A program made the position numbers and the translations under genes. Under the pieces are notes generated by a model. The model was not told the DNA's origin. It did no database searches and worked only from the letters and a program-made list of their open reading frames with translations. From Thermoplasmata archaeon (lineage in GTDB: Archaea; Thermoplasmatota; Thermoplasmata; Thermoplasmatales; Thermoplasmataceae), in NCBI GenBank assembly GCA_021806235.1, contig JAJZXU010000014.1, forward strand, positions 1 through 64,000: DNA of 64,000 nucleotides, written 5' to 3'. Shown here piece after piece: positions 4,290 to 20,156 of the stretch. How positions within the stretch are numbered: the stretch's first letter is position 1; every line of letters starts with the position of its first letter.

Positions 4290-5618
4290 ATGATAGATAT
4301 AAAATTATTAAGATCTGATAAAAAAATATTTTATGATTCCTGCATAGCCAGAGGTTTTGATATAAAAATACTGGATAAATTTTTTGAACTTGATGAAAAA
4401 TGGAGGGAAAACCTGAAGGTATTGAATAATTTAAAACATGATAAAAATAATATAACTGCTGAAATAGCAAAAAAAGTGAAAAATAATGGGGATATAGCTG
4501 ATTTAAGGGGTAAGGTTGCATCAATTAATAATAATATAAATAAACTATCGGACGAACAAAAAACTATAGAGGATGAACGTGATAAAATTATTAGATTAAT
4601 ACCGAATCTGCTGGATAAAAATGCACCTGTATGCTCCGGGGATGAAAACAGCCAGTTCATAAGGTATTATGGCATGGCCAGGGTTTATAAGGATGATCTG
4701 AAATATTTTAAAAAAAATAGCGGGAACTCCAGTGATTACAAGATATTAGAGGAAAAGCCCGAGGGGCATATGGAGCTGCTGAACGAATATAATTTGGCTG
4801 ATATTGAAAGAGCAGGCAAAATAGCTGGATCAAGATTCTATTTTTTAAAGAATAGGTTATTTAAATTAGAACTTGCACTGATAAACTATGCTGTTGATTT
4901 TTTATCCCAGAGGAATTTCACAGTAATGGAGCCACCGTTTATGATAAATTATTCATCAATGTCTGGGGCCACCGATATTGAAACCTTTAAAGAATCACTG
5001 TATAAAATAGAGGGGGATGACCTGTATTTAATAGCAACGTCAGAGCATCCGCTGGTATCAATGCTGTCAAATGAAATTTTAAATATGGATGAACTGCCCA
5101 TAAGAGTTTCTGGTGTTTCACCCTGCTTTAGAAGGGAGGCTGGGGCACATGGAAAGGATACAAAGGGTATATTCAGGGTACATCAGTTCAACAAAATAGA
5201 GCAGTTTGTATTCTGTAAACCTGAAGATTCATGGGATTATTTTGATGAACTGGTAAAAAATGCAGAGGACATTTATAAAAGTTTGGAAATACCATACAGG
5301 ATCGTAAATATATGCTCAGAGGATCTGGGAAGCCTGGCAGCAAGGAAATATGATATAGAGGCATGGTACCCATCACAGGGCAAATTCAGGGAAATTGTTT
5401 CCGCATCAAATGATACAGATTATCAGGCAAGATCACTGAACATAAAATACAGAACAAAGGATGGAAATAAATTTGTAAATACCCTAAACAGTACAGCAGT
5501 TGCCACTGAAAGAATCCTGGTGGCAATACTAGAAAATTATCAGAGGGAGAATTATATAGAAATACCAAAGGTACTGGTACCCTACACGGGTTTTGATAAA
5601 ATAGAGAGGGAGGATTAA
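4290..5618 (+). CDS. serS: Seryl-tRNA synthetase
   Basis: 442 residues, a class II aminoacyl-tRNA synthetase of the common (not methanogen-type) form. Residues about 25-105 form the long antiparallel coiled coil that grips the tRNA variable arm. Class II motif 2 is visible as SGVSPCFRREAGAHGKDTKG followed by IFRVHQFNKIEQF, and motif 3 near the C-terminus contains STAVATERILVAILEN. It is transcribed with eno-dph5 (43-nt gap) and its stop codon directly abuts the start of the MscS gene. Confidence 0.97.
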   Translation: MIDIKLLRSDKKIFYDSCIARGFDIKILDKFFELDEKWRENLKVLNNLKHDKNNITAEIAKKVKNNGDIADLRGKVASINNNINKLSDEQKTIEDERDKIIRLIPNLLDKNAPVCSGDENSQFIRYYGMARVYKDDLKYFKKNSGNSSDYKILEEKPEGHMELLNEYNLADIERAGKIAGSRFYFLKNRLFKLELALINYAVDFLSQRNFTVMEPPFMINYSSMSGATDIETFKESLYKIEGDDLYLIATSEHPLVSMLSNEILNMDELPIRVSGVSPCFRREAGAHGKDTKGIFRVHQFNKIEQFVFCKPEDSWDYFDELVKNAEDIYKSLEIPYRIVNICSEDLGSLAARKYDIEAWYPSQGKFREIVSASNDTDYQARSLNIKYRTKDGNKFVNTLNSTAVATERILVAILENYQRENYIEIPKVLVPYTGFDKIERED

Positions 5619-18090: not shown

Positions 18091-18249
18091 TATAATAATA
18101 CAAAAAATTACAGTAGTATGGTTTTTCTGTAAATATTACTTTGCACCCTAAAGTAAATATCATTAATTATTTAAATAATTAACGTATAGTTTAAATTTCT
18201 ATTAATTATGTTAACTACTTATAACACCCTTCACCATTTAACGTTTCAT

Positions 18250-18266
18250 CTAAATATTTTTATAAT
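18250..18266 (+). promoter_or_regulatory. Strong TATA box upstream of the candidate RNA gene
   Basis: CTAAATATTTTTATAAT predicts a transcription start near 18282, just before the GC-rich structured segment. No reading frame of useful length starts in the right place downstream, which supports a non-coding transcript. Confidence 0.5.
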
Positions 18267-18279
18267 ACAGCGTAACAAA

Positions 18280-18560
18280 GAAATGCGAGTTTTCCAGCAT
18301 AACTGCATAAGTCCAGAGGACAGGGGTGCTGGAAAATAATGAACAGGAATGAAATCTCTTCTGCAAGAAGGGCTCGATGCGTATAGGGTTCCCGACCCGG
18401 GGTAAAACGCAGGCAAAACAGGTCATGCTTTGAAATCGACAGAAACGTGATTTTATATAATAAAGCAATCTCCGAACCGGAAGGGGACGGGGTAGATGCC
18501 TTAGGGTTAAGGCAACGAAGTTTAAGCTCTTCATAAAAGATGATAACTTCCAAAGATGAA
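18280..18560 (+). ncRNA. Candidate structured non-coding RNA (family not identified)
   Basis: A GC-rich island of about 280 nt between AT-rich flanks, preceded by a strong TATA box. Visible perfect helices: TTTTCCAGCA (18290-18299) with TGCTGGAAAA (18327-18336), enclosing GTCC/GGAC (18311-18321); TGCGT (18378-18382) with ACGCA (18407-18411), enclosing GGGT/ACCC; GCCTTA (18498-18503) with TAAGGC (18508-18513); GAAGTT (18517-18522) with AACTTC (18545-18550). Its size suits RNase P or SRP RNA, but I could not place RNase P GAGGAAAGUCC or the SRP helix-8 loop; ACAGAAA at 18439 is suggestive only. In AT-rich thermophiles such islands are usually RNA genes. The ends are estimates. Confidence 0.55.
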
Positions 18561-18776
18561 TGTTAACATGGTTAACAGAAATCATAACCTGATTCCTCAA
18601 CCTGTACATTATCTTTTATTACTTAACATCATAAAAATAAATAAAAATTTTTGTGTAAACCCGTTAAACAAATGAGAGCTATACATTATATATGCTGTTT
18701 TAGAACACTAAATGATCGACATACTGTATATAATAAAATACACAAATAAATTTTTATATTATACTGTAATCAAATT

Positions 18777-20156
18777 ATGATAATTATGTTACAACAATTT
18801 ATTAACAGGAAATATGAATTGAATTTTTTAAATAACAAATATACGGAAAATAAATCTCAATTAATAATAATTTATGGAAGACGGAGGGTCGGCAAAACTG
18901 AACTTATAAAGGAATTTATAAATAAGAAGAAGGCAGTATACCACCTATGTACTGAAGATAGTCTACTGGAAAATGTCAATTACCTAAAATTAGAATTTTA
19001 TAATATTACCGGTAAATCATATTTTTTAAACCTGGATGTGGATTTATTTACGTTGTTCAAATATTTTATAGAGGAAATAAAAAACGAAAAAATCATAATA
19101 GTATTCGATGAAATACCATATTTAATATCAATAAGCAAGGGAGTTTTATCGGTATTCCAGAAAATATACGATGAATTAATAATAAATTCCAATTTATTTA
19201 TCATTTTTTCTGGGTCAAGTATCAGTATGATGGAAAATGAAATTTTAAATTTTAAATCACCACTTTATGGTAGAAGAACCGGAAGTATTGAAATAACTGG
19301 TTTTGATATAAATCTAATATCGCATTTTTATAATAATAATTTTGAAGATATTGTAAAGATAGACTCAATATTCGGAAATATACCATTTTATCTATCATTG
19401 ATCGATAAAAGTAAAAGTATTGAATGGAATATAAAAAATAAGATATTCACAAAAGGTGAAATTCTATACGAGGAGCCCAAGATACTTTTAAAGGAGGAAT
19501 TCCGCGAACCAAGAGTTTATGAATTAATATTAAAGAAAATTTCTGAAGGATATAATACATACGGTAAATTGCAGAATTCATTGCATATCGACTCTGGAAA
19601 TATATCGAAATATTTAGAAACACTCATATCAAGCAGGTTTATTAGATATGTTATTCCCTTAAATCAGAAAAGACGCGGTATTTATGAAGTTAATGACTAT
19701 TTTTTAAATTTTTATTATAAATTTGTATACCCAAATATATCAGATTTGGAGATCGGAAATATAAATACTGTTTATAATAGAATTGATAGAGATTTAAATA
19801 CGTTTTATGGGCATACGTTTGAGAGAATTGTATTAAACATGATTTCAAAACATATTATACCAGTGCCCATTGAAAATTTTCATATAAGCAAATTCTGGCA
19901 TAAGGATATTGAAATTGATGGAGTCGCAATAAACGATGAAAATGGTGTTGTGTTTATCGAGATAAAGTTTTCATCCGATGTTGATGGTATAAAAATATTC
20001 AAGGACTTAAAATATAAATCTATGAATGTTAATATAAAAAGGAATGGGGAATTTTTCATGGTTATAGCAAAGTCGTTTAAAACAAAAAGTGATGAATGTA
20101 TCAATATAGATTTTGATGATATAGGAAAAATAATAAAAAAGTTAAATAAATCCTAA
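18777..20156 (+). CDS. Archaeal ATPase with C-terminal DUF234 (PD-(D/E)XK-like) domain
   Basis: 459 residues. The N-terminal half is the STAND-related archaeal ATPase family: IIIYGRRRVGKTELIKEFIN is Walker A, IIVFDEIPYLISI is Walker B, and a sensor-type FIIFSGSSISMME follows. A winged-helix-like region comes next (YNTYGKLQNSLHIDSGNISK). The C-terminal DUF234 domain has IEIDGVAIN followed by VVFIEIKFS, an acidic residue plus ExK that resemble a restriction-like nuclease core. This family is widespread in archaea, often in accessory regions, and its function is unproven. It is a lone gene directly after the candidate RNA. Confidence 0.85.
   Translation: MIIMLQQFINRKYELNFLNNKYTENKSQLIIIYGRRRVGKTELIKEFINKKKAVYHLCTEDSLLENVNYLKLEFYNITGKSYFLNLDVDLFTLFKYFIEEIKNEKIIIVFDEIPYLISISKGVLSVFQKIYDELIINSNLFIIFSGSSISMMENEILNFKSPLYGRRTGSIEITGFDINLISHFYNNNFEDIVKIDSIFGNIPFYLSLIDKSKSIEWNIKNKIFTKGEILYEEPKILLKEEFREPRVYELILKKISEGYNTYGKLQNSLHIDSGNISKYLETLISSRFIRYVIPLNQKRRGIYEVNDYFLNFYYKFVYPNISDLEIGNINTVYNRIDRDLNTFYGHTFERIVLNMISKHIIPVPIENFHISKFWHKDIEIDGVAINDENGVVFIEIKFSSDVDGIKIFKDLKYKSMNVNIKRNGEFFMVIAKSFKTKSDECINIDFDDIGKIIKKLNKS

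Follow-up and report, generated by a model that had tools for sequence, protein, structure and literature searches.

The window, a 64,000-nt stretch of a contig from a Thermoplasmata archaeon (genome G000), contains a GC-rich non-coding island at 18285-18589, 3′ of a TATA box, that folds into conserved helices. GC content is 0.45-0.50 at 18300-18500, against 0.19-0.28 upstream and 0.18-0.26 downstream. An original prediction, made from the sequence alone, had placed a GC-rich island with a clear TATA box and several perfect helices at 18250-18610. The island and the TATA box (TTTATAAT; first base 18259, with helix-bearing sequence beginning 26 bases further on, at 18285) were confirmed, and the helices are present: P1 with 10 bp and a closing G-U, P2, P3, P4, and P4b. 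The limits were slightly off, as alignment of copies with their flanks places a mobile element at 18188-18589 (~400 bp). Downstream of the element, the product of the gene at 18777-20156 is 459 aa long and has a Walker A-like motif, GRRRVGKTE; by eye it was judged to be probably an archaeal ATPase. The element and its surroundings comprise the following features.

18185-18187, + strand: TAT, a target/TAM-like motif of the host DNA that abuts the element on its 5′ side; it precedes the left end in nearly all recognisable copies.
18188-18258, + strand: left end (LE); the shared sequence of the copies starts here, and the LE consensus is that of autonomous IS607 elements in genome G041.
18259-18266, + strand: TATA box, 39-43 nt before an invariant CATAACTGCAT core in nearly all copies, in all genera.
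18285-18428, + strand: predicted 5′ RNA domain (model R1) with P1, P2, P3, P4, P4b, and a pseudoknot, from covariation in 13 copies.
18289-18337, + strand: P1 (18289-18299/18327-18337) enclosing P2 (18311-18314/18318-18321).
18357-18371, + strand: P3 hairpin (18357-18362/18366-18371); three pairs changed on both sides.
18379-18424, + strand: region of P4 (18379-18382/18407-18410), P4b (18390-18393/18399-18402), and the pseudoknot.
18394-18398 with 18420-18424, + strand: pseudoknot between the P4b loop and downstream bases in the 5′ domain; GACCC:GGGUC in G067 and GACAC:GUGUC in G182.
18429-18458, + strand: variable linker joining both domains; it is shorter in G041, in G346, and in one copy of G277.
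18459-18589, + strand: putative omegaRNA-type scaffold, homologous to the tnpB 3′ end and right end of IS607 elements.
18497-18514, + strand: hairpin S2; five pairs with double changes.
18504-18508 with 18586-18590, + strand: putative guide-proximal pseudoknot, in which loop GGGUU can pair with AACCU; its pairs were counted across the solo copies.
18517-18550, + strand: stem S3 (GAAGUU/AACUUC); 96% of cells paired.
18561-18577, + strand: terminal hairpin UGUUAAC-AUG-GUUAACA in the right end; 93% of cells paired.
18591-18606, + strand: putative guide of ~16 nt in flanking host DNA, placed from TnpB biology (PMC10097598, PMC10711439) and the empty site.

The expectation that the island holds no protein gene was borne out. 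Its sense frames contain stops throughout. In this genome the island does have antisense ORFs, 97-119 codons long, but copies in G041 carry stops in every antisense frame, indels between genera shift the frame, and substitutions have no codon periodicity. A protein-coding reading of these ORFs was ruled out on these grounds.

Covariance models of all 4227 Rfam families gave no match at the island at E values up to 10, barring one chance match, and none at ten loci with relatives. The models for RAGATH-18, HEARO/IscB omegaRNA, and group I and II introns match neither the window nor those ten loci. The original prediction allowed for a diverged housekeeping RNA, RNase P or SRP RNA, and proposed two models as a check. 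Size and GC content do suit such an RNA, but neither the archaeal RNase P model (RF00373) nor the archaeal SRP model (RF01857) matches the island, the true RNase P RNA gene lies elsewhere in the same genome (G000:C27:69279-69569, 208 bits), and the island is multi-copy and mobile. The chance that it is a diverged RNase P or SRP RNA is negligible, and any housekeeping role is very unlikely given the multi-copy mobility. What stands of the prediction is an apparent RNA gene with its own promoter that matches no described RNA family.

A search with 18260-18580 found six full-length copies in this genome, the five others 93-98% identical to the window copy, plus partial ones. In alignments with flanks, the similarity of the copies begins and ends at the same points and the flanks are unrelated; the repeated island is therefore a mobile element. 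Nearly every copy whose left end can be recognised has TAT adjoining that end on the 5′ side. The copy on contig C27 (L032) splits a nitroreductase-like gene <1 kb from the RNase P RNA gene. Its empty site in relatives reads ...CATAT^GATTC...; the insertion removed no bases and duplicated none except one shared T. TAT is native there and immediately precedes the flank. The empty site of the window copy in G002 is AATTAACGGAT^GATCCC and carries GAT, one substitution from TAT; T18590 is common to both junctions of that copy. These two clean empty sites with one shared T match IS607 insertion through a short core without long target duplication. No GG core of the kind described for other IS607 elements was seen, and TAT is the common feature. 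At each site the target motif 5′ of the element (TAT at C27, GAT in G002) adjoins the predicted guide match.

Three species (L039, L048, and L049 in G000, G002, and G005) have an old insertion of the element in common, at one site next to a methyltransferase gene, with a different internal deletion in each. Adjoining this relic, L048:4266-5272 and L049:4297-5282 encode a coiled-coil protein with tandem repeats (MDKTDEHIARIEEHIEALEAR...) and masked bases inside; the repeat number varies between species. At L033 (G000:C34), ~190 bp at about 4765-4956 interrupts the left end of a copy, which is adjoined by an IS607 element with a truncated TnpB ORF.

The 5′ half of the island was compared across copies. 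From the near-constant spacing between the TATA box and the CATAACTGCAT core, transcription should start near P1, at ~18285. P2 pairs GUCC with GGAC, and P3 pairs UCUUCU with AGAAGG. The folding energy of the single sequence stands out only modestly (z = -2.15; 3 of 200 shuffles do as well) and is weak evidence for an RNA; comparison is decisive. Compensatory changes in Thermoplasmatales relatives, which the original prediction proposed to look for, were found, and the helices covary over 13 copies. The 34 pairs of the 5′ domain are 90% paired, against 43-46% with slid partners. Double-changed cells number 40, against 19 ± 2.6 in shuffles, in a set that holds six near-identical copies and four from G041, so that cell counts overstate independent events. 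The covariation score is 0.271 against 0.170 ± 0.012 and was reached by none of 500 shuffles. Pairs with a double change (10) and pair types (19) are not above shuffles in the 13 copies. P4b shows C-G to G-C swaps among copies. Outside the set used for model building, the G182 copies have the pseudoknot as GACAC:GUGUC and P1 rebuilt, and the G067 copies have it as GACCC:GGGUC. These divergent copies add independent support for the predicted 5′ fold.

The 5′ domain is absent from the tnpB-bearing elements tested, and autonomous IS607 elements in G041 leave no room for it between left end and tnpA. An origin as a piece of tnpB was rejected because tblastn matches the last ~60 codons only. A place inside tnpB loci was rejected as well, since the domain model, run with filters off, found no credible copy there; the sole good hit near such loci is the relic of the element itself beside the methyltransferase gene. 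A weak match (26.6 bits) lies just upstream of an IS605-type tnpB ORF at L187 (G182:C7, 2203-2346, minus strand). A right-end-like sequence and a second TATA box intervene, and a role as tnpB leader is not claimed. The comparisons argue for a separate, strongly covarying RNA domain with a second pseudoknot and no known family, and identify a structured RNA domain missing from Rfam. In ISDra2, RNA upstream of the scaffold is dispensable and can be deleted without effect (PMC10097598), so guiding alone leaves the strong conservation of the 5′ domain unexplained. Our guess is that the domain acts in 5′-end protection or in loading of TnpB in trans.

Normally, it is the 3′ end of tnpB that gives rise to the TnpB guide RNA. 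Positions 18459-18589 match the last tnpB codons and the IS607 right end in many Thermoplasmata genomes, with homology running to the right end and 75-82% DNA identity to tnpB 3′ ends in relatives. tblastn still recognises the last ~60 codons of tnpB there, with a stop. Across 13 solo scaffolds, 29 pairs are 91.4% paired, against 33-49% when slid, and eight pairs changed on both sides, against 4.6 ± 1.3 expected. The S2 helix is preserved with base pairs other than those in tnpB, in which this stretch codes for GIGLYP. The stem-loop can form a pseudoknot with the bases just before the guide; GGGUU:AACCU pairs in full in 10 of the 13 solo copies and is mostly invariant, which makes it weak as covariation. 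IS607 TnpB requires such a guide-proximal pseudoknot for its activity (PMC10711439), and TnpB and Cas12 guide RNAs have it as a conserved feature (PMC10097598). Solo scaffolds have in common a derived stretch of the GAACCGAAAGGG type that was not seen in tnpB copies and points to one old family. In G346 and G041 the terminal part of the scaffold is identical or nearly so to that of the resident tnpB, as expected if solo elements depend on resident enzymes. Judged by its pairing, the 3′ ~130 nt keeps a TnpB guide-RNA architecture through compensatory changes, with coding lost.

Autonomous relatives were found in G041. Solo elements and three intact IS607 elements with serine TnpA and TnpB share the left-end consensus, (A/G)GTYAAGT, the TAT, and the right end there, and the ends are thus common to IS607 serine-transposase elements. 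The G041 proteins match IS607 transposase NF033518 and RNA-guided TnpB NF040570. The intact IS607 copies of the window's own genome share the right end and do not share left-end sequence beyond TAT. Full-length TnpB ORFs with the scaffold occur in G000, G041, G346, and G182. None was found at the loci checked in G277, G052, G045, and G013, where several loci are contig ends.

Multi-copy relatives of the element occur in other genera of the family, with six copies in G041, six in G277, and several in G346; G013, G052, G001, and G045 have one to three each. The 5′-domain model matches 11 of 400 genomes of the class Thermoplasmata. A sequence pattern of the P4 region, searched in 84,980 species genomes, matched only records titled Thermoplasmatota, Thermoplasmatales, Thermoplasmata, or Euryarchaeota. 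A similar pattern matched nothing in viral contigs, and viral spread was rejected on that basis. Genome G067 contains five repeats with IS200/IS605-like ends (L188, L189, and L190, with further copies in L266 and L267), with a TTAC-type left flank and right end GGGGGGAGAGTAGGTCAA. They carry the same P4, P4b, and pseudoknot with a different 3′ part, for which this 74%-complete genome yielded no corresponding tnpB.

The locus is probably a non-autonomous IS607-family element that encodes only a stand-alone omegaRNA of about 305 nt and uses TnpA and TnpB in trans. Comparison of the copies demonstrates, at the level of sequence, clean insertion next to TAT, ends shared with IS607 in G041, a fixed TATA box, and a covarying scaffold and 5′ domain. 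From these we infer transcription of the RNA, its loading onto TnpB, and cleavage of the empty site. TnpA, the serine recombinase of a resident IS607 element, would mobilise the element in trans, as the shared ends and copy number suggest. The element's own TATA box would drive a transcript through the right end into the flank, and the 3′ guide would be copied from neighbouring host DNA. TnpB from another element could then bind the scaffold. The complex may cut DNA carrying TAT and a guide match, which is the empty site, after excision or on the sister chromosome, and repair of the cut would copy the element back. A guide starting at 18591 directly follows the target motif at the empty site, so loaded TnpB would cut precisely the element-free sites. 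A retention role of TnpB akin to that of homing endonucleases has been described (PMC11870625). The 5′ domain probably supplies what a tnpB transcript gives in cis, which we again guess to be 5′-end protection or TnpB loading. Some observations weigh against the trans-acting omegaRNA: the different left-end sequence of the intact IS607 copies in G000, conservation of the 5′ domain beyond what guiding needs by the ISDra2 precedent (PMC10097598), the other ends of the G067 elements, which have the same P4 and pseudoknot and no matching tnpB in that incomplete assembly, and confirmation of full-length TnpB partners in some host genomes only.

The main rival for the 5′ domain is a decoy or regulator of TnpB, in which the scaffold would bind TnpB and the 5′ domain would inactivate or redirect the complex, restraining or parasitising full IS607 elements. 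Conservation of the domain past the needs of guiding (PMC10097598) and its absence from the autonomous elements tested speak for this role. A decoy would not strictly require the guide-proximal scaffold, the pseudoknot, and the exact right-end boundary, all of which are kept, and we regard the role as unlikely. A simpler account is a plain IS607 derivative that arose by internal deletion and is moved by TnpA; the RNA likeness would then be no more than a relic of tnpB and the ends. Such non-autonomous elements are common in archaea, for example in Sulfolobus (PMC3718332), ends alone are enough for mobility, and truncated copies exist. The compensatory changes in both halves across genera, the TATA box at a fixed distance, and a 5′ domain derived from neither tnpB nor the ends make this account quite unlikely.

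The compact nested helices and pseudoknot upstream of the guide RNA also invite comparison with a self-processing RNA, a ribozyme or intron-like domain that would trim the guide RNA, and in IStrons a group I intron is joined to an IS605/IS607 element (PMC4227781). Even at relaxed thresholds, intron and ribozyme models gave no match to the domain, the element has no fixed terminal G, the TATA box is internal, and the IStron survey found none in archaea (PMC4227781). An IStron or group I intron was ruled out by the absent model match and terminal G, and self-processing of any kind is highly improbable.

In the trans-acting omegaRNA element, it seems that the guide RNA has turned into a mobile gene, equipped with a promoter and an additional conserved domain, for which other elements would provide nuclease and transposase. 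If this is confirmed, RNA-only elements can act as parasites of RNA-guided transposon maintenance, and the element is a natural trans-acting TnpB guide system in archaea. The separation of guide RNA from nuclease gene, a step assumed in the origin of CRISPR-Cas12, would become testable. A bolder and rather doubtful reading takes the 5′ domain to be a new RNA module, evolving independently, through which elements without protein genes hijack TnpB in trans. The module would define a separate lineage of RNA-only selfish elements with two end types: those of Thermoplasmatales are IS607-type, and those of G067, from a distant family of Thermoplasmata, are IS200/IS605-like. If true, this RNA-only lineage would be comparable to guide RNAs becoming their own genes in CRISPR evolution.

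Stand-alone IscB omegaRNAs (HEARO-type) are guide RNAs without an adjacent nuclease gene and are thought to act in trans; they serve a different nuclease family, and the HEARO model has no match here. Archaeal non-autonomous IS derivatives (PMC3718332) and RNA-guided IS607 TnpBs (PMC11061315, PMC10711439) are already known. The CC-licensed PMC literature yielded no protein-less element that combines a TnpB-type guide RNA with a promoter of its own and a further conserved domain; subscription papers lay outside this search, and priority is not established. IStrons likewise join IS605/IS607 to a structured RNA and include ORF-less copies, but the RNA described here is no recognisable group I intron and the IStron survey reports none in archaea (PMC4227781). 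Sulfolobus SMN1 and SM3A (PMC3718332) are likewise short and without ORFs, and the transposase of a related IS mobilises them in trans; the papers covered describe no conserved guide-RNA gene for the Sulfolobus elements. A conserved structured RNA also serves IS607 TnpB in the case of RAGATH-18-derived RNAs (PMC11061315), whose model does not match here and which lie mostly beside tnpB, whereas the solo elements have no tnpB. IS607 elements with TnpB reRNA/omegaRNA, such as ISXfa1 (PMC10711439), share the ends and TAT context (in G041), the scaffold, and the guide-proximal pseudoknot. Unlike them, the present element has neither tnpA nor tnpB and carries its own TATA box, an extra 5′ domain, and a guide RNA outside a tnpB transcript.
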